Shown one piece after another: positions 10,691 to 25,693 of a stretch of DNA of 64,000 nucleotides. Source of the DNA: Brochothrix campestris FSL F6-1037 (lineage in GTDB: Bacteria > Bacillota > Bacilli > Lactobacillales > Listeriaceae); NCBI RefSeq assembly GCF_000525915.1, contig NZ_AODH01000013.1, positions 1-64,000 on the forward strand. Reading direction: 5' to 3'. How positions within the stretch are numbered: the first letter of the stretch is position 1; each line of letters starts with the position of its first letter. The notes below the pieces were generated by a model. It saw only the letters and a list, made by a program, of their open reading frames with translations, was not told the DNA's origin and ran no database searches. The translations under genes were made by a program, and so were the position numbers.

Positions 10691-13600
10691 TTAAAATAAT
10701 GACAACTGATTTTCATCTGGCAAGCCGTCTAAACAACCCATATCGCTCATGTAATCAATAATCGTTTGCGATACTTTTCCGCGTTGTTTCACATCTTCCT
10801 TCGATAAGAAGATGCCATTATCACGAGCCGCTTCAAGTTGTTTCGCCACGTTTGTTCCTAGCCCAGGAATCGAGTTGAACGGCGGAATCAGTGAATCGCC
10901 TTCGATGATAAACTCATCTGCGCTCGACTTGTATAAATCGACTTTTTGGAATTTAAGACCACGCGCGACCATTTCATTGGCTAACTCTAGCACGGTTAAG
11001 AGGTTCTTCTCTTTCGTTGATGCTTCCATGCCTTTATCGGTAATATTTTTCATGCTCGCCATGATGGCTTGCTTGCCGTTGACCATTGCAATTAAATCAA
11101 AGTCATCTGCGCGAACGGTAAAGTATGTCGCATAATAAAACAATGGATGATGGACTTTAAAGTAGGCAATGCGTACCGCGTTCAAGACATAGGCTGCGGC
11201 ATGGGCTTTCGGGAACATGTACTTGATTTTTTTACACGAATCGATGTACCAATCCGGTACGTTTTCAGCGCGCATGGCCGCTTCCCATTCTTCAGGAACG
11301 CCTTTTCCTTTACGCACTGATTCCATGATTTTAAAGGCTAATGATTCTTCGACACCCATGTAGATTAAGCCGACCATAATATCATCACGACAACCGATTA
11401 CTTCAGACAAGACAGATTGTCCTGACTTAATTAATTCCTCAGCATTGCCTAACCAAACGTCGGTTCCGTGTGATAGACCAGAGATTTGGAGCAATTCACT
11501 AAAGGTACTTGGATTCGTTTGTTCGAGCATTTGTCGAACGAATCGCGTGCCGAACTCGGGTACACCGAGCGTGCCTGTCTTGGAGTTGATGTCTTCTGGC
11601 GTAACGCCTAATGATGTCGTGCCTGAGAATAAGGCGAACACATCAGGATCATCCGTCGGAATATCGGCTGGTGAAATGCCGCTTAAATCTTGTAACATCC
11701 GAATCATTGTCGGATCATCGTGTCCTAAAATATCGAGTTTTAAGACGTTATCGTGAATCGAATGAAAATCAAAATGGGTGGTACGCCATTCTGAGTTAAC
11801 GTCATCCGCCGGAAATTGTATCGGTGAAAAATCGTAAACGTCCATGTAATCAGGAATAACAATAATCCCCCCAGGATGTTGTCCGGTTGTCCGCTTCACG
11901 CCTGTACAGCCATTCACTAAGCGGTCGGTTTCTGCACCGCGAATATGGAGGTCGTTATCGCGCTCATACGCTTTTACGAAGCCATAGGCTGTTTTTTCGG
12001 CAACGGTACCGATTGTGCCTGCCCGAAAGACGTAATCTTCCCCAAATAATACTTTCGTATAGTTATGAGCTTGCGCTTGGTAATCACCCGAGAAGTTTAA
12101 ATCGATATCGGGTACTTTATCCCCTTTAAAGCCTAAGAAGGTTTCGAACGGAATATCATGGCCGTCTTTATCATAGTTCGTGCCACATTTTGCACAGGCC
12201 TTATCGGGTAAGTCGAAACCAGAACCGACTGAACCATCATGGAAAAACTCAGAGTGTTGGCAGTTGGGGCAAACGTAATGTGGTGGCAAGGGGTTTACTT
12301 CGGTAATCCCTGTCATCGTCGCTACAAAAGACGAGCCGACCGAGCCACGCGACCCTACGATATAACCATCATCGTTTGATTTTTTTACGAGCTTTTGTGA
12401 AATCAAGTAAATAACGCCGAAACCGTGACCGATAATACTTTTTAATTCTTTTTCTAAACGGTCGATAATAATCTGGGGCAGTTCGTCGCCATATTTTGCA
12501 CGAGCATTCGTGTAACTCATTTCAGTCACTTCTTCGTCTGCCCCTTCGATTTTAGGTGTATAGAGCTTATCTCGAACAGGGACAATTTCTTCACACCGAT
12601 CGGCGATGGCGTTCGTGTTCGTTACGACGATTTCAAAGGCCTTGTCTTTGCCCATAAACGCGAATTCTTCGAGCATCTCATTCGTCGTGCGGAACTGGAC
12701 GTCCGGCAATGGATTACGGTTAAGCGGGTTGGCGCCCCCTTGTGAGTTGATGAGAATTTTACGGTAGATTTTATCTTTTGGATCCAAGTAATGCACATTT
12801 CCGGTTGCTACAACGGTTTTTTCTAATTTCTCACCGAGTGCAACGATGTTTTTAATAATGTCTTGTAACTCCGTACGATCTTTCACCATCTCACCATCGA
12901 TTAACGGTTGGTAAACAGTCGGTGGCATTACTTCAATAAAATCGTAATAATGCGCTGCGTTTTCCGCTTCAACCGCACCTTTTTGCATCATTGCCATGAA
13001 CACTTCGCCACGGTCACAACCTGAACCGACAATGATTCCTTCACGATGTTTATCAAGTAGTGTTCGTGGTACGCGAGGCACACGGTGCAAGTAATTTAGA
13101 TTCGACGCTGAAATAATTTTGAAGAGGTTTTTTAACCCGACATCGTTTGTCGCTAACAAGGTCGCATGCGAGGGGCGCGCTCGTTTATAAGCATCGCCTT
13201 CACCAACATATTGATTCAACTGGTCGTGCATCGTAATCTGGCGGTTTTCTTCGGCGTCTTTAATAAGCTTCCATGCCAGGTAGGCAGTTGCTTCAGAGTC
13301 AAAGATGGCGCGGTGATGTTGTTCTAAAATAATGTTAAACCGTTTCGTTAACGTGTTTAAACGATGGTTTTTAAATTGCGGGTATAAGAAACGCGCTAAC
13401 TCTAACGTATCGAGCACTGGATTAGTCGCTTCGCCAAAGCCATGACGTTTGTAGGCAGCGTTTAAGAAGCCCATATCAAAGCTGGCATTATGTGCCACTA
13501 AAATATCGTCACCGGCCCATGCTTTGAAACGGGTAAACACTTCAAGCTCCGTTGGTGTATCAGCAACCATCTCATCGGTAATCCCGGTTAAGTTAATGGT

Positions 13601-15011
13601 GGTCGCACTTAACGGATGCCCCGGATTAATGAAGGCCTCGAATTCGTCGATTTTTTCACCATTGACCATGCGGACGGCCCCGACTTCAATTACCTTATCG
13701 TAAACGGCTGATAAACCCGTCGTTTCAAAGTCAAATACGACATATGAAGCGGTCTGTAATGCGAGCGGTGCTTCATTATAGGCAATCGGAACACCTTCAT
13801 CGATTAAGTTGATTTCGGTGCCGTATAAAATTTTAACGCCGTGTTTCTTGCCAGCACTATGCGCATCAGGGAAAGATTGTGCCCCTGAATGGTCGGTAAT
13901 CGCGATTGCCTTATGCCCCCACTTGGCTGCCTGGGCAACAAGATCTGCGGTTGGTGTCACAGCATCCATCGTACTCATTGGTGTGTGTAAATGTAATTCC
14001 ACCCGTTTTTCGCTAGCGGTATCTTCACGACCCTTCACTTTAATCTCGTTAATATCTTGTGCCATTAAAATTAATTCTCGTGAGAAGTTATCGTTTTGCA
14101 CTGAGCCACGTACTTTAACCCAGATGCCTTTTTTGATGCCGCCAAAAATAGAGCTGTCATCTTTATCTCGTGAGAACATCTTCACGATGATTGAGCTGCG
14201 GTAATCGGTAATCTTAAACTGAACGAGTGAACGGCCACTGCGTAATTCACGCACTTCTGAGGCAAATATGTAACCTTGGACAGTTACCTTTCGTTCTTCA
14301 TCAACGATTTGATCCAAGGTCATCATTTCTTCATTCGCCTTAATTGGCAATCCTAAAACTAATGGGCCACTCGGAACAGGATTGTCTTTCGCTTGATTCT
14401 CGACACGTTTTTGCATCTCGTTTAAGGTCGCTAACGCTTTTGCCTTATCTTCTTTCTCTTTGTTTGCTGTGAACTGTTTAAAGGCTTCTGACTCACGGTC
14501 AACCGCTTTAACTTCAATCGTAAAGCTATAGCCTGTCATCCCCGCCTGTTCCATTAAGGGCAGCAGCGCGTTGCCACAATTTTTTAGTCATCACTAATTT
14601 TTCTGTCTCATTATCAGCCGCCAATTGAATTTTATTGTTGGCAATGAGCGGCACTTGATCAGCGAAACGTTGCCCAATCATCGGTGACGACTCACGAATT
14701 TTATTGGCAAAGAACGGCCAGTAATCAGCTAAAATCGCATTGGTGAGTTCGCCTGCCTTTGAAACAAACTTAAACTCCGCCGAATGGATATGCTCAAAGC
14801 TATTTGTTAAGGCTTCTGTTAATACGCGATACGTTGTACCAGTTAAATATGTTTCTATATCAATGACAAACTGCCACCGTTGACTTTGTTCATGCACAAC
14901 GACCTTTGCTAACGAAGCGTGTGTCAGTTCTGCACGGATGAGGTCATTATCCATCAAGCCGATTTGTTCAAGCAAGATGTGTAATTTGTTGGATTGACTG
15001 TTATTTTCCAT
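10691..15011 (-). CDS. polC: DNA polymerase III alpha subunit, PolC type (one frameshift)
   Basis: Gram-positive replicative polymerase. In order: an N-terminal region, an OB-fold, a PHP domain ([14 protein letters not shown]), an inserted 3'-5' proofreading exonuclease (FDFETTGL), a zinc site (CPNCQ and CAKCG), the palm ([17 protein letters not shown]) and the tail ([19 protein letters not shown]). The frame shifts within about 14550-14590. Removing one base, for example in the A6 run at 14580-14585, gives 1439 aa, close to the usual length. ATG at 15011 has GGAGATG upstream. In relatives polC commonly follows proS; here proS is 21 kb away. Confidence 0.96.
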
Positions 15012-15222
15012 GTGTTCATCTCCAATTGGGATATTTCTTCTACAAAGATTAATTATAGCAAACTTCAAGCTATTCTCAAACAGACGACCTGAAGAATCAG
15101 CTGAAAAACATGAGTAGATTGCTCGTTTTGCCCTCTCTCTTTATTTTTAGTAACTTTATGTGGTCATTTTCTTATTTTAAAAGGGTCGTCTCGAAAATCA
15201 CCGGGCAAACAATTAACCAAAC

Positions 15223-17305: not shown

Positions 17306-17731
17306 TTAAACCATTTCATCATGCTTGAAAAACTGAGATACTTCAAACATTGTTAAATCAGGTAACACTGTCACGGCTCCTTGTAATTGATCCGTTTGAC
17401 CAATGCAAACGGCTACCATTTTCGCCTTATTTGCTGCTTCTATCCCCGCCTGTGAATCCTCAAACACTAAACAACATTCAGGCTCAACTCCTAACAACTG
17501 CGCCCCTTTAAGAAACACTTCCGGATCCGGTTTTGCCTCAGAAACCATATTGCCATCGACAATAGAATTGAAGTAAGGCAGTAGTGCTGTTTTCGTCAAA
17601 ATAGCACTAGCATTTTTACTCGCCGAACCTAGAGCAATTGGTATTTGTCGTTCATTTAACGTTTCTAAGATACGGCGTACCCCTGGCAAAACCGCTGTTT
17701 CATCTAAGTTATTAATATAACATTGATACAA
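17306..17731 (-). pseudogene. pgmB: Truncated beta-phosphoglucomutase (N-terminus lost)
   Basis: C-terminal part of a HAD-superfamily beta-phosphoglucomutase, which interconverts beta-glucose 1-phosphate and glucose 6-phosphate. Visible are the cap end (VLPGVRRILETL), HAD motif II (IALGSASKNA), the Lys motif (VSEAKPDPEVFLKGA) and the acidic motif (LVFEDSQAGIEAA). The first 80 or so residues, with the catalytic Asp nucleophile (DxD), are missing, so it should be inactive. The reading runs back into a truncated PTS permease, which points to a deletion joining the two genes. Confidence 0.85.
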
Positions 17732-18069
17732 AAAATGGCTGAAGGGAACGATAATTTACCTAGTTCACGATACGATTTACTTTTTGCAAATACCATCGCC
17801 AATACCAGACCAATCGTAGCTCCCGATCCCCCTACATTCATAAATAAGGTCCACAAACCATCAGCAACTTCGTTTGGAATCGGCTGACCACTGCGAAATG
17901 CCTCCATATTCATTGCAATATTATTTAGAAAAATTGGTGTTGTTATTCCTGCCAATAGATTTGGACCATGGATACCTAACGTCCACAAACCAAGGGCTAA
18001 CAACGTAAATACCAGTAAACCAGGAATCGTATTTAAACCGAACACGAACACCAGCGGTTTGAAAGTTGT
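17704..18069 (-). pseudogene. Fragment of a PTS sugar permease (EIIC)
   Basis: An internal piece of an EIIC membrane component of the lactose/cellobiose type, about 115 codons. It shows LGLWTLGIHGPNLLAGITTPIF and MNVGGSGATIGLVLAMVF, typical of the substrate-binding region. The beginning is lost at the CRISPR array: the open frame runs right up to the last repeat. The end is lost after LSFPSAIF, where it fuses out of frame to the pgmB remnant. It is certainly non-functional. It may mark a site that was truncated when the CRISPR locus or the flanking DNA rearranged. Confidence 0.82.
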
Positions 18070-19625
18070 GTTTTAATACCATTCAATTTAACACAGCTCT
18101 AAAACTTCAACTTGATATTGAGTTTACTAACTAACGTTTTAATACCATTCAATTTAACACAGCTCTAAAACTCCATTACTGTTCCAGCGCCTAAACCACC
18201 AGTTTTAATACCATTCAATTTAACACAGCTCTAAAACCATATTCATTATCATTAATCAAATCAGATTGTTTTAATACCATTCAATTTAACACAGCTCTAA
18301 AACGCGTTCCCCTTCGCTGGCGCGTCCTCTGAAGTTTTAATACCATTCAATTTAACACAGCTCTAAAACGCGTTATAAGGGTCATAACAGATAGCCTTAG
18401 TTTTAATACCATTCAATTTAACACAGCTCTAAAACAAAAGAAATATCTAGAAATAATAAAAGAAGGTTTTAATACCATTCAATTTAACACAGCTCTAAAA
18501 CTGCTGCTCTATCTCTCTATCTAGTAAGCTAGTTTTAATACCATTCAATTTAACACAGCTCTAAAACCCGCCAGCGTTGAAATGAATAGAAATGAACGTT
18601 TTAATACCATTCAATTTAACACAGCTCTAAAACTTCTCGATGTAATCTGCTATCTCGTTAGTCGTTTTAATACCATTCAATTTAACACAGCTCTAAAACC
18701 CGTTTGCATAACCATGACCTTTTCCGATTGTTTTAATACCATTCAATTTAACACAGCTCTAAAACTATATATTAATTATACACCATAACATAGCAGTTTT
18801 AATACCATTCAATTTAACACAGCTCTAAAACTAGTGAACCACATAGTGCAATAGAAAAGTAGTTTTAATACCATTCAATTTAACACAGCTCTAAAACAAG
18901 TCGGTTATATGTTCGGTAAAGAGATAGGTTTTAATACCATTCAATTTAACACAGCTCTAAAACTTGTTTTTTGCGCTTCTTTGGTAGGCGCTGGTTTTAA
19001 TACCATTCAATTTAACACAGCTCTAAAACCTAGTACCATTTGAAAAGGTTACACTGTCTGTTTTAATACCATTCAATTTAACACAGCTCTAAAACGCCCG
19101 ATTATTAGAACAACACAAAAAAGATGTTTTAATACCATTCAATTTAACACAGCTCTAAAACCACGAAAGCGGAGGTGACGCGTTTGAACAAGTTTTAATA
19201 CCATTCAATTTAACACAGCTCTAAAACACGATACCGCCTTTTGCGTAACCGTCCATTGTTTTAATACCATTCAATTTAACACAGCTCTAAAACAAAACAA
19301 ATGGCCTGCGCGTTTTATTCCAAGTTTTAATACCATTCAATTTAACACAGCTCTAAAACCTTCAATGATATAGAAAAGATTAGACAACGGGTTTTAATAC
19401 CATTCAATTTAACACAGCTCTAAAACCCCAGTCTTCTACTTTGTCAAAAAGACTGTGTTTTAATACCATTCAATTTAACACAGCTCTAAAACTTTCACTG
19501 TTTTAATCATCTTAGAAACTTTAGTTTTAATACCATTCAATTTAACACAGCTCTAAAACACGAACAAGCAAATGATTACACAGAGGGTGGTTTTAATACC
19601 ATTCAATTTAACACAGCTCTAAAAC
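18070..19625 (-). CRISPR. Type II-A CRISPR array, 24 repeats and 23 spacers
   Basis: Twenty-four copies of a 36-bp repeat start at 18070 and recur about every 66 bp up to 19590-19625. On the minus strand, the direction of the cas genes, each begins GTTTTAGAGCTGTGTTAAAT and ends GGTATTAAAAC, the usual II-A repeat form. I saw no variation between copies, including the trailer-end one. Spacers are 30 bp, except two of 31 bp (after the repeats at 19324 and 19457). The leader side is at 19626, toward csn2. The trailer end abuts a truncated PTS permease with no degenerate terminal repeat. Spacer targets cannot be judged here. Confidence 0.98.
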
Positions 19626-19684
19626 CTCAAATGCGTCGATTTTGTCATTGCTGTTCTCGTTGCGCGATTCAAAATTGAATGGTA
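19626..19684 (-). promoter_or_regulatory. CRISPR leader with ATTTGAG anchor
   Basis: On the minus strand the bases just before the first repeat read ATTTGAG (19626-19632). This matches the leader-anchoring sequence known in streptococcal II-A arrays, where it directs new spacers to the first repeat. The leader is only about 60 bp long between the array and the repaired csn2 stop. No strong promoter was recognised inside it, so the array may be read from csn2 or from promoters within repeats. Confidence 0.7.
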
Positions 19685-19687
19685 TTA
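19672..19687 (-). repeat. Inverted partial CRISPR repeat overlapping the csn2 stop
   Basis: On the minus strand the 16 bases TAATACCATTCAATTT are the exact reverse complement of repeat positions 17-32. The element contains the repaired csn2 stop codon TAA. A transcript running from csn2 into the array could therefore pair this element with the first repeat about 50 nt downstream, or with any other repeat. Its core is shared with the tracrRNA anti-repeat. Confidence 0.75.
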
Positions 19688-20369
19688 CCGCCAAAATTCG
19701 ACGTAATCCTCATCGATATGTAACGTTTTTTTCGTACATTAGTGCTTTTTGGTGGTACTGTGGCTCGATTACCAACAATTTCACTTGGTGATACAATGCA
19801 TATTTATAAATTTCAACTAGTTCGTTCGCGTTAAAATAACAGCGAATGTTATTTAGCACTAGTACCCGCACCAATACTAATTCGGCAATTACATCAATAA
19901 TCGCTAACAGACGTTGGAACATCGTCGTTTCTTCGATATCAATGCGCAAATTAAACATTTTAAAAATGGTTGCCAGACTCGTCGCATCATCCACTGTTAA
20001 TTCAATTGCACACTCGGTTAGTTGGTCAGTAATCAAACTTCTTAGTTCAACTATTTTTTGATCGATAACATCAGTTTCCTTACTTATATGATACCGCTTT
20101 TCAAGCTGTTTGTAAATTTTAGTAACCAAGGTGCGCTGCTTAAAGTCAAACCCAAACACATCGGTAATGAGTAGCAGTTCTTTGGCTAAGACTAGCCGTT
20201 CGCCCGCTTCATACAATTGAATTTCAATCGGAGCTGGTTCGTCGTTAAGTGTTTGGACGAAACTCTCAATTATTTCACGATAAAAACGCTGATTCTCAAT
20301 TGCCAGAATAACGACACTTTCGTCATCAAACGCAAGCGAATGTTCCAATTGGAAGATTTCAAGGTTCAA
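19685..20369 (-). CDS. csn2: Csn2, type II-A spacer-acquisition protein (frameshift at the end)
   Basis: Ring-forming, DNA-end-binding protein needed for adaptation in type II-A systems. The 227-aa repaired length and segments such as LLLITDVFGFDF and VRVLVLNNIRCYF match the family. It starts with TTG, overlapping the cas2 stop by 4 bp (TTGA). The open frame stops early at 19710. Removing one A from an A7 run near 19730 restores the ending TLHIDEDYVEFWR and a stop at 19685. The last few codons lie inside the inverted partial repeat. Confidence 0.9.
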
Positions 20370-20689
20370 AAAATCACCAACCGTTTCTCATTAGCTACGA
20401 CGTGGTCTTGCTCTTTTCCAACCATTAAGTCGATAGCAGCATATTGTTTTTCAGTGACTGTCAGCACTTGCACTAACCCTTTCGTCGGACAAGCTTTCTT
20501 GATGCGCTTGCGCAATAAATTGGCCGCTGTGCCATTTAGTACGAGCTTAGCATAAACAGATTGTTGCACCATGATAAAGCCTTCTTGGATTAAAAATTTT
20601 CGAAAATGACGATAGGCTCTTTTTTCTTCGGTTGTTTCAATCGGTAGGTCAAAAAAGACAATCAGTCGCATAAAGCGATAACTACTCAT
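20366..20689 (-). CDS. cas2: CRISPR-associated Cas2
   Basis: Small ferredoxin-fold protein, 107 aa, that forms the integrase complex with Cas1. The first strand MRLIVFFDLP carries the conserved Asp14. The rest (KRAYRHFRKFLIQEGFIMVQQSVYAKL) is typical of II-A Cas2. The ATG at 20689 overlaps the cas1 stop by 8 bp, which suggests translational coupling. A TTG 12 bases earlier is an alternative start. Confidence 0.95.
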   Translation of the reverse strand: MSSYRFMRLIVFFDLPIETTEEKRAYRHFRKFLIQEGFIMVQQSVYAKLVLNGTAANLLRKRIKKACPTKGLVQVLTVTEKQYAAIDLMVGKEQDHVVANEKRLVIF

Positions 20690-21557
20690 GTTGGAAAACA
20701 AGCTGTTTTATTTGATTCGCATCCGCTGTCTCAATCGCTTTAAAGACGCTTTTTAAGTAGATTTGAATCGCTAAACTAACAAAATGGCTTTGCTGTTGAA
20801 TGATGACCTTGTCATTCAGCAGGTTCACAAGACCCATTTTATATGATTGATCGAACACTTGCGCTTGATTGTGATAAACAAAGGCATCGACCAACGGCCG
20901 AAACGGCTCCATCAAATCCGATGACAAATTGAAGAAATTAAATTGATTCGTATGCTTTAAACCTATTTGTGTTAAGTACCCTTGACTCACAATTTCTTTA
21001 TTAAAACTTGATAATAATATCGTATAGCCGTAATTTAACGCTGCATTGATTGAACCAGGCTCATCACGCGTAAATTTTTTACCGAATAACGCATTGAAAT
21101 ATACTTTAGCCGCATGACCCTCACGATTTGTTTCATCATAGAGTTGTAAATCTTGCACGTATTGCTGCAACTTATCTGCTTCTGGTAATGCTAGTTGTGC
21201 TAATAATAGTTGTTGCTGCTCAATTTTAGCTTTAATAACAGCTGTCCAGATTACTCGTTGCACCGCTTGCGGCCACGCAACTTGTTCTTTAATTTTCTTA
21301 CTCGTGTTATGGGCACCATAATAGGGAACCAACTCACTTTCAGGCTGTCGTTTTTCATCGCAAAAGATGACCTTCACCTTTTTCTTCATCAGCTCCGAAA
21401 TTAAATATGCTGTTATGACTGTTCGTGTAGAATCGATTAGCAATGTATGTATTTCAGACAAATGAATCATTTGCTGTTGCTCACCTCGGATAACTAAATA
21501 CCCGTTTTTATAGGATAACTTCACATGCTTGGTAATGACTACCGTACGCCAACTCAT
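20682..21557 (-). CDS. cas1: CRISPR-associated Cas1 integrase
   Basis: Metal-dependent DNA integrase that inserts new spacers, 291 aa. The active-site residues are visible: Glu146 in NREGHAAKVYF, His202 in GLKHTNQFN, and Asp214/Glu217 in SSDLMEPFRP. The start ATG has AAGGG upstream and lies 17 bp after the cas9 stop. The gene order cas9-cas1-cas2-csn2 on one strand defines subtype II-A. Confidence 0.97.
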   Translation of the reverse strand: MSWRTVVITKHVKLSYKNGYLVIRGEQQQMIHLSEIHTLLIDSTRTVITAYLISELMKKKVKVIFCDEKRQPESELVPYYGAHNTSKKIKEQVAWPQAVQRVIWTAVIKAKIEQQQLLLAQLALPEADKLQQYVQDLQLYDETNREGHAAKVYFNALFGKKFTRDEPGSINAALNYGYTILLSSFNKEIVSQGYLTQIGLKHTNQFNFFNLSSDLMEPFRPLVDAFVYHNQAQVFDQSYKMGLVNLLNDKVIIQQQSHFVSLAIQIYLKSVFKAIETADANQIKQLVFQHE

Positions 21558-21574: not shown

Positions 21575-24500
21575 TTAACTAAAATCCTCAATTGATTGAT
21601 ATAAGCCTGTAATGGACTGGTTGATTATTTTCAGGTTATTCGAGATTGGTACATTGCCTAACCGTCCTTCTCGCTCTGTCAGACCAAGCAGTTTTAAATT
21701 ACCATTTGTGGCATTCGCACGCATTACTTTGATGATTTCTTCGATGATGATGACTTTTTCATTGAAGGTACACACGTTAAATCGCTCCGCGGCCGCTGTC
21801 AGTTTAACTGCGACATTTTTGAATATCTTGAAATCAGAGGTTATTTTTAACAGCAGTTCGTCAAAAACGACGGTTAAATCACTGCTGCGGTACTGCTCCA
21901 AAAAGCTTGCTTCGGCTGCTTGTTTTGCACTTATTAGATAGATGATTTGTGCCGCTGCTTCGCTAACAACTAATTGACGCGCATTATGACGTTCCGTCGG
22001 TCCTGCCACATAAAGGGCACAGTTGTCATTTTGAATTAATTGATATTTTAAAACCCGCTCTTTTAGTATTTGACATGGCCCACCGATACAATCTGTCACA
22101 TAGGCTTGTAAAGTCGTTTGACCCGTATCAATCAATACTTTCGTAGCCATCGGAATCCCTAACAAACGACGCTTTTGTTTATTTTTCACAGGATATTCAA
22201 TCAAACTATAAAAGGCATAATTAACATTTGTGTAACCACCATAGAGTGATACCCCTAAATTTTTCTTTAATGGAATCGTTTTATCCGCTGCTTTTAACGC
22301 CGGATAAATCGTCTCTTTAAATAACATCCCCGACTGTTCTTCCACTTTTCGAACAATATTACATTGTTTAAAATTGAGGGTTCGTCTCACTTTGGCAATG
22401 TCGGTTTCAGGGTTCCAAAACAATTCACCTGTTTCATGATTGAATGTCGGTTTCGCCAAACTTTCAACAATGAAAGAAAATTTCGGCTTCGTCGTTGTTT
22501 TACGCAAATCGGCCAAGTACTTATTATAGCCTTCGTAAACAAATTCCATTTCTAATTTAGGGTATTTCGACATGATATACGTACCGATAAAGCTTACTAA
22601 ATAAGCATCTTGCGCATGGTGATAATCATTCACATTACGATTTTTGATAAAGTTAAATTTATGTCGTAAATCGCTCACTAGCCCTGCCTTAATTGCCACA
22701 ACCTTCGTATCTGTTTGGTACTCTTTTTGCAACAACTGAGTCACATGCTTCGTGATTTGTCGTGTTTCGACCAATTGCCGTGCCACAAAACCTTCTTTAT
22801 CTCGATCAGTGATTTTAGTGCGTGTTAAATTACGGAATTTCTTTTCACCAATTAAGCCAGCGCGTTTCAGTTGTTCCCAACGGGTGCGATTTTTAGTAAT
22901 CACAGTGGAATCTAATAATAAGTCGGCACCCTTTCGTTGGTTTTCACTCCGTTTGACCAACGCTAAATTTTCGATACTGTTATCTTTTATATAACTTTGC
23001 GGTAATATATGGTCAACTTCATACGAAGATAGGTCGTTAATCTGTAATGTCTCACCCGTATACATACATTTACCATTTTGAATGAAATAAAGAAATAACC
23101 GTTGTTGACTGATGTTTTTGCGATGCTCTCTCAATTCGGCTAACAGCTCTTTATTAAACGCATCTGTTTCAATTTTTAGTTTAGCAAAGGCTTTTTCGAT
23201 GAATTTATCACGTGTGTTTGTCCGTTTTGATTGTTCATCCGAACGAGCAAATTCAATAAAGATGTTTTTAGCTGGTCGTTTTTTTTACTTTCTCAAGTTC
23301 CTTAACGATTTTAATGGCTTGCCAAATTGCCTTCTTATTTGCAGGTGATGTTGCCAATTCATCAATGACTTCTTTCGAAAGGCCACGTGTTTCTCCCTCA
23401 AATTGCTCATCAATAATCGTTTGGAAACCGTAGTCTTTCTGACGTAGCACCTGCATTAAATTGTCATTCGTTTGCCATAATAAAGCGAGCAATGACTGTG
23501 GTTCATTATCGACTAATGGTGCCGCAACTTTAATCTCTGTCAATAATTTTCGTGACAATCGTCCCCAACCTCTTAAACGTAAATTGGCCAGCTCCGTCAC
23601 TTGTTTTGCTGTCAGTTGCGGATAAGCTTCCAACTTACGGCGCATTATCTTTTTATCTTCAAAAACGGTTGACCAGTAGATGATTTGTTCCACCATTGCT
23701 TGATTCTCTGGCTGATTCACAAATTCAGCACCTAAAATAGACTGTAAACGGTGGTAAGCCGTTAATGATGTCGCAAATTCAGTTTCTTTTTGCGTGCCTT
23801 GAATTGTTGCTACCGTAAGATGCTCATGCTCCGCCAACCATTTTTTTAATTGTTTATGGGTCACTTTTTGCTTATGCATAAAGAGGCATTCATAAATGCG
23901 CTGTTTTAAAGCAACATCAAGTGGTCGATTATCTAAGCGGATTTTATTCAACTCATTTAAAACTTCAAATTTGGCGTAAACCAAGGAGTTCTTTGGCAAG
24001 ACGTCTTCGTGTAATAAATAGGTGCATTTATTTGTCATGCGTTTAATGAAAGCTTCCGATGACGCATCAATATCAACCATTTCTTCAAAGTTAAACGGTG
24101 TGATTTTACCGACTTGTTTACGAATCATCCATGCAAATTGACTATCTTTTTCATCCGCTAGTGGACCGACATAATAAGGAATTCTAAAAGTCAGTAACTT
24201 TTGAATGTTAGCTGCTTGCTCTCGTAAAAACGGATAAAATTGGCCTTGATTTTCTAGTATGGCTAACAATTCTTGCTGATGGACTTGAAAAGGAATCGCA
24301 CCATTGCCGCGATGACGTTGAACTTCCATAAAGTCATCTACATCGATATCAGCGAGGAGTTGTTGAGCAACATCATTTCCCGCGAAGCGATTGTGTTCGA
24401 GTAAACCTTTGGCTCTTTTTAAGAAATCTTCTTTTAAATTCGTATTTTTGATATAATTCGCATAGCTCGTTTCAAATAGTTGACGCTCTTTCATGGTGAC

Positions 24501-25526
24501 ATCGTCTTGGCGTAGAAGCGTTTTAACTGCTGCCAAATCGGCAGCATGTTTATGATAGGTAGCGACTTTAGCTGCACTCACATTGTTTTTGCCTTTCATA
24601 ATCTCATGTAAAACAATACTACTATAAATGTATTGCGCCTTCTCAACGATACTAAACTGTTCTTCATCCAATACATCATTAAGCTCTGCTAATTTAACAT
24701 CAATGTCCTCAGCAGCCATGGTAACATCTTTGCCTACTTCAAGAAAACTGTCGTTATCAAATAAGATAGCGATATTAGCTTTTAATCCAACAATGAGATT
24801 AAACAGCTGTGTGAGACGTTTCTTGGATTCTTTAATGGCTCCAGTTAACGACACGCAGTCTCTCACCTTAGTACTTTTATTTCGCTGATTATCTGTTAAA
24901 ATTGCTGAAAGACTCGCAATATTGACGTCATCGAGCAAATAATTATCAATCAAGCGGAATTTCGCTTGTAGGTCTCGCAAATCATCACCCACTTGACTAC
25001 CCTTCATTGTAAATGTTTGTTGTTCATAAACAAAATGACCTCGGTATTTGATAATATGATGTAATGCAAGGTAAATCTCACGGATATCTGCCGCTTCAGT
25101 AGTAGTCATTAAATGTTGGCGCAAATGATAAATAGTCGGGAATTTTTGATAATAATCGACATCACTATAAGATTCATCTTGAAAAAGGAGCGATCCCTTA
25201 TATGTTTTTTGATTGTCTTTAGGTGATAAAAAGGCTTCTTTTAGACGAATAAAGAAAGATGGATCTGTTTGTAAAATGTCTGCTTCGAATAAATCTTCTA
25301 ATAATTGCAAACGGAATTTACGATGACGTAAACGGCGACGTGTACTTCTATAGCCACGTCGTTCGGCAGCGGCTTGCCCTTCTTCGAACAATGACACACC
25401 CCATAAATTCTTTTTCTTAGCCTGTAGTAACTCGTTATCGTTACTAGCCGTTACTGCCCACCCAACACTGGCAACGCCAATATCCAATCCGATATTATAG
25501 TCTGTATTTTTGTTTTCATTCGTCAT
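21575..25526 (-). CDS. cas9: Cas9, type II-A (one frameshift)
   Basis: RNA-guided DNA endonuclease. RuvC-I is NIGLDIGVASVGW with Asp15. An Arg-rich bridge helix follows (RGYRSTRRRLRHRKFRLQ). RuvC-II (NIFIEFARSDEQ, Glu about 758) lies across the break. The HNH nuclease shows EVDHILPQS (His about 839) and RSENQRKG. RuvC-III is YHHAQDAYL (His about 970, Asp about 973), followed by the PAM-interacting C-terminus. The frame breaks in an A8 run at 23279-23286. Removing one A gives a continuous 1316-aa protein with all catalytic residues. ATG at 25526 has AGAGGG six bases upstream. Without the repair, the protein would be split before RuvC-II and be inactive. Confidence 0.95.
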
Positions 25527-25551
25527 TTTCATCCCTCTTTCAGTTAGTATG

Positions 25552-25586: not shown

Positions 25587-25693
25587 GTATCATTCATTCA
25601 ATTGATACCATTCAATTTAACACAGCGAGTTAAAATAAACATTTTTGTTTAGCGTCTTTCATTAGATGACCTGCCATCAGGTCTTTTTTTTTT
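25587..25693 (+). ncRNA. tracrRNA of the type II-A system
   Basis: About 107 nt, divergent from cas9. The anti-repeat at 25605-25626 (22 nt) pairs perfectly with the CRISPR repeat. Then come a GAGU bulge (25627-25630) and TAAAAT (25631-25636), which pairs with the repeat's first six bases, the layout seen in Streptococcus. Next is a nexus-like hairpin TAAACA/TGTTTA (25635-25651). The terminator stem GACCTG/CAGGTC (25668-25683) is followed by ten T. The exact 5' end is inferred from the promoter. The perfect match to the repeat shows it belongs to this array. Confidence 0.92.

Follow-up and report, generated by a model that had tools for sequence, protein, structure and literature searches.

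A leader anti-repeat element in the type II-A CRISPR-Cas locus of Brochothrix campestris as the probable arm of a leader-repeat RNA hairpin

Organization of the type II-A locus

The 64,000-nucleotide stretch of the Brochothrix campestris FSL F6-1037 genome analyzed here (contig NZ_AODH01000013.1, positions 1 to 64,000; hereafter, the window) contains a type II-A CRISPR-Cas locus that lies on the minus strand and consists of the cas9, cas1, cas2, and csn2 genes, in this order, a short leader, and an array that follows csn2 on the same strand. The cas9 gene (21575-25532; TIGR01865) comprises two open frames (23268-25532 and 21575-23134) and is followed by a type II cas1 (20682-21557; TIGR03639), cas2 (20366-20701; TIGR01573), and csn2 (19685-20369; TIGR01866). 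The array (18070-19625) contains 24 repeats of 36 bp, which read GTTTTAGAGCTGTGTTAAATTGAATGGTATTAAAAC on the transcribed (minus) strand. Repeat 1 (19590-19625), the predicted hairpin partner discussed below, would yield an extraneous CRISPR RNA (crRNA) if processed. The part of the leader that bears on the hairpin occupies positions 19626-19687 of the minus strand and carries, at its 3' end, the ATTTGAG adaptation motif (19626-19632) known from the van Orden Group 1 leaders (PMC5382924). A candidate tracrRNA is found on the plus strand at 25600-25690, where Rfam family RF02348 scores 38 bits, below its gathering score of 70; the anti-repeat of this candidate spans nearly the entire repeat, positions 17-30 included.

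The far end of the array (17704-18070) adjoins a PTS cellobiose IIC gene that is cut mid-frame (profile positions 223-326 of 424), with a fragment of a beta-phosphoglucomutase gene coming next, and the last, leader-distal repeat is not degenerate. The junction between the array and celB suggests either a deletion that joined the two or an assembly join.

As sequenced, csn2 stops at a TGA at 19710 because of one extra base, probably in the A7 run at 19726-19732. Read in the frame of its sister species, the protein ends in ...IDEDYVEFWR*, compared to ...IDNDYIEFWQ* in locus L023 from the same genus, and the stop codon is the TAA at 19685-19687. One apparent frameshift each is seen in cas9 (21575-25532), polC (10691-15068), and csn2 (19726-19732); with three of them within ∼15 kb, draft sequencing errors are a more likely cause of the broken frames than decay.

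An exact complement of the repeat next to the leader end of csn2

The minus-strand sequence TAATACCATTCAATTT (19687-19672) is an exact, 16-nt complement of positions 17-32 of the CRISPR repeat; the plus-strand letters at 19672-19687, AAATTGAATGGTATTA, are identical to these repeat positions. The element is separated from repeat 1 by 46 nt (19626-19671), which confirms a preliminary description of this DNA that had placed it about 45 nt away, and its first three bases are the TAA of csn2, so that the same description was right in assigning the repaired csn2 stop to the element. A search of the complete genome (2,372,280 bases) finds 24 copies of the 16-mer in the array, where all repeats contain it, and otherwise only a single inverted copy, which is the leader element itself; the reversed pattern, used as a control, has no matches in that genome. 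By our own arithmetic, a leader of ∼60 nt would contain an exact 16-nt complement of a 36-nt repeat by chance with a probability of about 1e-7 to 1e-6. The locus carries a second anti-repeat, as had been pointed out, but II-A loci with this class of repeat usually do. A tracrRNA function of the leader element is not supported: the match at 25600-25690 is the sole tracrRNA-like one found with Rfam, and no terminator-like site was detected in the 19560-20400 region.

Predicted folding of the leader with the repeats

The 101-nt RNA that consists of the leader and repeat 1 has a predicted folding energy of -25.5 kcal/mol (z-score of -3.4), and none of the 200 shuffled sequences folded as well. Its minimum-energy structure contains a main helix (helix I) of 16 bp, all of them Watson-Crick pairs, with the element as the 5' arm and repeat 1 positions 17-32 as the other. 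Inner helices are formed by the leader segment at 19653-19666 (minus strand), in which CGCGC (19662-19666) pairs with repeat positions 9-10 and 12-14 and AGAAC (19653-19657) pairs with positions 1-5. The same arrangement, with covariation, is predicted in 26 relatives, where GGCGC in the leader and the 5' half of the repeat form the counterpart of the inner helix.

Taken as a duplex, the leader and the repeat of the window have an energy of -25.3 kcal/mol (z-score of -4.5 against dinucleotide shuffles), compared to -39.2 kcal/mol for the duplex of the tracrRNA with the repeat. Given that the latter is stronger, the leader would have to prevail through its position in cis and its earlier synthesis. 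The preliminary description had proposed pairing with the first repeat, which the 101-nt RNA reproduces; longer folds, however, choose repeat 2 or repeat 4. At equilibrium, in an RNA comprising the leader and four repeats, the element is found on repeat 2 (0.62), repeat 4 (0.34), and only rarely on repeat 1 (0.002). Spacer sequence dominates these longer folds, so folding alone does not decide which repeat is the partner; co-transcriptional folding could turn this preference around. A promoter scan revealed no convincing promoter that would place the transcription start upstream of the element, the number of sites in the scanned stretch being at chance level; the one minus-strand candidate in that stretch lies within csn2 (20116-20088).

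Comparison of type II leaders

Loci were gathered through the cas1 and csn2 families in the same family and order, complemented by cas1 alignment in named genomes; the same-family genomes included contigs of Listeria aquatica and L. immobilis. The resulting 160 loci with arrays yielded 126 distinct type II leaders after deduplication. Across these leaders, the start of the best complement to the repeat usually lies 60-80 nt upstream of repeat 1, and the complement covers positions 17-31 of the repeat; in the 95 loci with repeats of the GTTT-AGAG class, the best complement to positions 17-31 is concentrated 60-85 nt upstream of the first repeat. Leader-repeat pairing was better than in dinucleotide shuffles (P < 0.05) in 77 of the 126 leaders; here and below, counts take no account of shared ancestry. 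The other 49 loci, many of which carry repeats of other types, were not significant one by one, and many lactobacilli with other repeat classes had no clear element among the 126 leaders.

Where the repeat differs, the leader differs with it. For example, locus L064, with the repeat ...GAATCGAATGC, has the matching leader sequence GCATTCGATTC; L065, with ...ATTTCAAATGGTTC, has GAACCATTTGAAAT; and L125, with ...GATTTGAATACT, has AGTATTCAAATC. When leaders and repeats were swapped among loci, the mean fit was 11.3 out of 15 positions with the own repeat and 9.2 with a swapped one. With a single leader taken for each of the 33 distinct repeat cores, leaders fitted their own repeats far better than those of others (z-score of 11.7; permutation P of 5e-5). 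These comparisons support the view that the leader element changes together with the repeat, i.e., that the two appear to coevolve.

Locus L023 (minus strand, 350-451), from the closest relative, which belongs to the same genus, has a repeat identical to that of the window, but its element lacks one base and is mismatched at another; its helix keeps 11 pairs, is bulged and weaker than that in the window, and the leader-repeat fold is no better than those of shuffled sequences (z-score of -0.8). Helix strength thus varies within the genus. The csn2 stop codon is located inside the element in L023 as well. In all but two of the 66 loci with a clear element, it lies upstream, at a distance of 3 to more than 100 nt, and its overlap with the element appears, from the loci compared, to be a trait of Brochothrix-like loci that is restricted to the genus.

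Compensatory changes in the leader-repeat structure

An alignment of 26 leader-repeat sequences (A2) was built with MAFFT blind to structure and analyzed with RNAalifold, which found the main helix, a four-pair stem within the leader, and an inner helix between leader GGCGC-GATTAC and the 5' half of the repeat. In this 26-locus alignment, changes on both sides were seen in 10 of the 12 main-helix pairs and in 15 of the 24 pairs of the whole structure. Paired cells amounted to 94.9% for the whole structure and to 33 to 44% after sliding by 1 to 3 columns; 61 doubly changed cells were observed, compared to 19.8 in shuffles. In none of the 500 shuffles did the percentage of paired cells, the number of doubly changed pairs or of doubly changed cells, the pair types, or the covariation score reach the value seen in the alignment.

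Departures from Watson-Crick pairing on the transcribed strand included 100 G.U pairs and 38 A.C transitions (P of 1e-7, with shared ancestry not corrected for). The asymmetry had a P value of 0.17 among the best-matching elements alone (at least 12 of 15 positions), and the ratio was 13 to 8 when each position-change class was counted once. As supporting evidence only, this preference for G.U in the transcribed orientation suggests that the pairing takes place in RNA and not in DNA.

Two further features of the alignment deserve mention. Columns 36-49 correspond to a small leader stem (GTCT...AGAC and its variants) that covaries and is located between the two leader-repeat helices. Leader columns 52-64 (GGCGCGATTAC) form a near-invariant block in the leaders of Streptococcus, Enterococcus, Vagococcus, and Listeria; its conservation would be explained by the predicted pairing of this block with the 5' half of repeat 1.

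Relation to known leader-repeat hairpins

In two later papers from the same group (PMC13187072, PMC12080349) that cite Liao et al. (2022), the II-A leader is described as pairing with the extra (first) repeat, which interferes with the tracrRNA and prevents the formation of extraneous crRNA, and the leader hairpin of Streptococcus pyogenes is described as speeding the maturation of the adjacent, newest crRNA. The locus analyzed here resembles that of S. pyogenes in that a leader segment within 180 nt of the array complements repeat 1 and would compete with the tracrRNA anti-repeat; both systems have the guide-repeat crRNA layout, so that the extra repeat is the first one. It differs in that its predicted main helix is an uninterrupted one of 16 bp that overlaps the csn2 stop. 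In type VI-B, too, extraneous crRNA is blocked by pairing of the leader RNA with the first repeat; that, however, is a Cas13 system without tracrRNA, with no reported effect on the newest crRNA (PMC13187072). Type II-C systems face the same problem of an extra repeat without a spacer but rely on terminators, guide-trapping hairpins, or repeat mutations instead of leader-repeat pairing (PMC12080349). The RNA expected from processing of repeat 1 with a leader guide corresponds to the ldrRNA of lactobacilli, which has been observed in these bacteria and in Streptococcus thermophilus (PMC6070500).

Proposed function and alternative explanations

In all likelihood, a type II-A leader-repeat RNA hairpin that masks repeat 1 from the tracrRNA has the element as its 5' arm. 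The evidence for this reading consists of the sequence match, the predicted fold, the kept position, and coevolution with the repeat. We infer transcription through the element, a block of the tracrRNA, and an effect on the newest crRNA. The leader and the array would be transcribed from the minus strand as one RNA, in which TAATACCATTCAATTT would fold back across the 46 nt onto repeat 1 positions 17-32, with the leader also pairing with the 5' half of the repeat. The hairpin would hide repeat 1 from the tracrRNA, and repeat 1, being masked, would not be converted by RNase III and Cas9 into an extraneous crRNA with a leader-sequence guide. By analogy with S. pyogenes, processing would be favored at repeat 2 and hence yield the crRNA of the newest spacer. 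Competition with the tracrRNA for the first repeat and a block of crRNA production from it had been suggested in the preliminary description; such is the known role of these hairpins, and the fold, the coevolution with the repeat, and the compensatory changes argue for it here.

Several other explanations can be considered. At the DNA level, the inverted repeat of the leader might guide integration by Cas1-Cas2/Csn2, e.g., as a cruciform. Leaders are the integration site, van Orden et al. have suggested that a leader-repeat cruciform might recruit Cas1-Cas2 (PMC5382924), and the adaptation motif ATTTGAG is present at the end of the window leader. However, the known motif is confined to the final few leader bases, 40 or more nucleotides away from the element, and both the strand-asymmetric mismatches, with G.U on the transcribed strand, and the small covarying stem inside the leader fit RNA; this explanation is unlikely. 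A purely mutational origin, in which template switching between the leader and the repeat perfects inverted repeats and leaves the match as an unselected by-product, would agree with the perfect 16-mer in the window and the broken one in the sister species with the same repeat. Yet such correction would give perfect copies, while most loci hold G.U-biased mismatches, and the position and the inner helices are conserved, making this origin very improbable. The earlier suggestion that the element is the scar of an inverted repeat copy does not explain why many genera keep an element at this position, with pairing that tolerates G.U.

Coupling of csn2 translation to the array, also proposed earlier, would have ribosomes open or close the hairpin at the stop codon inside the element and thereby tune the array RNA. 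This placement of the stop is seen in the window and in L023; in nearly all other loci with the element, the stop is upstream at a very variable distance, so that the overlap with csn2 is not kept, and the idea, being unsupported, is hardly credible. As for chance similarity, the 3' end of csn2 and the repeat are both AT-rich, but the 16-mer is unique in 2.37 Mb outside the array, its pairing stands out against dinucleotide shuffles, and the element is conserved and covaries across genera, a comparison that already refutes chance and makes its probability negligible.

A different role for the same RNA pairing can also be envisaged. In this lineage, the 16-bp helix, which is perfect and both longer and cleaner than those of the relatives, might form not only with repeat 1 but also with repeat 2 or other repeats, or might itself be cleaved by RNase III. 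In that case, the leader would be a cis-acting, tracrRNA-like processing signal and not a simple mask, with the matching upheld in part by template-switch correction. We regard this as an unlikely variant. The masking hairpin favored here is conserved, yet it is already known in kind and does not represent a new type of element.

The strongly conserved GCGCGATTAC block of many II-A leaders could be explained if it forms the inner helix by pairing with the 5' half of repeat 1. The preference of leaders for their own repeats, the compensatory changes, and the G.U bias together provide compact support for RNA-level selection of the leader helix across Lactobacillales and Listeriaceae. The hairpin predicted in Brochothrix would add a case from Listeriaceae to the known means by which type II-A systems avoid wasting Cas9 on the spacerless first repeat.
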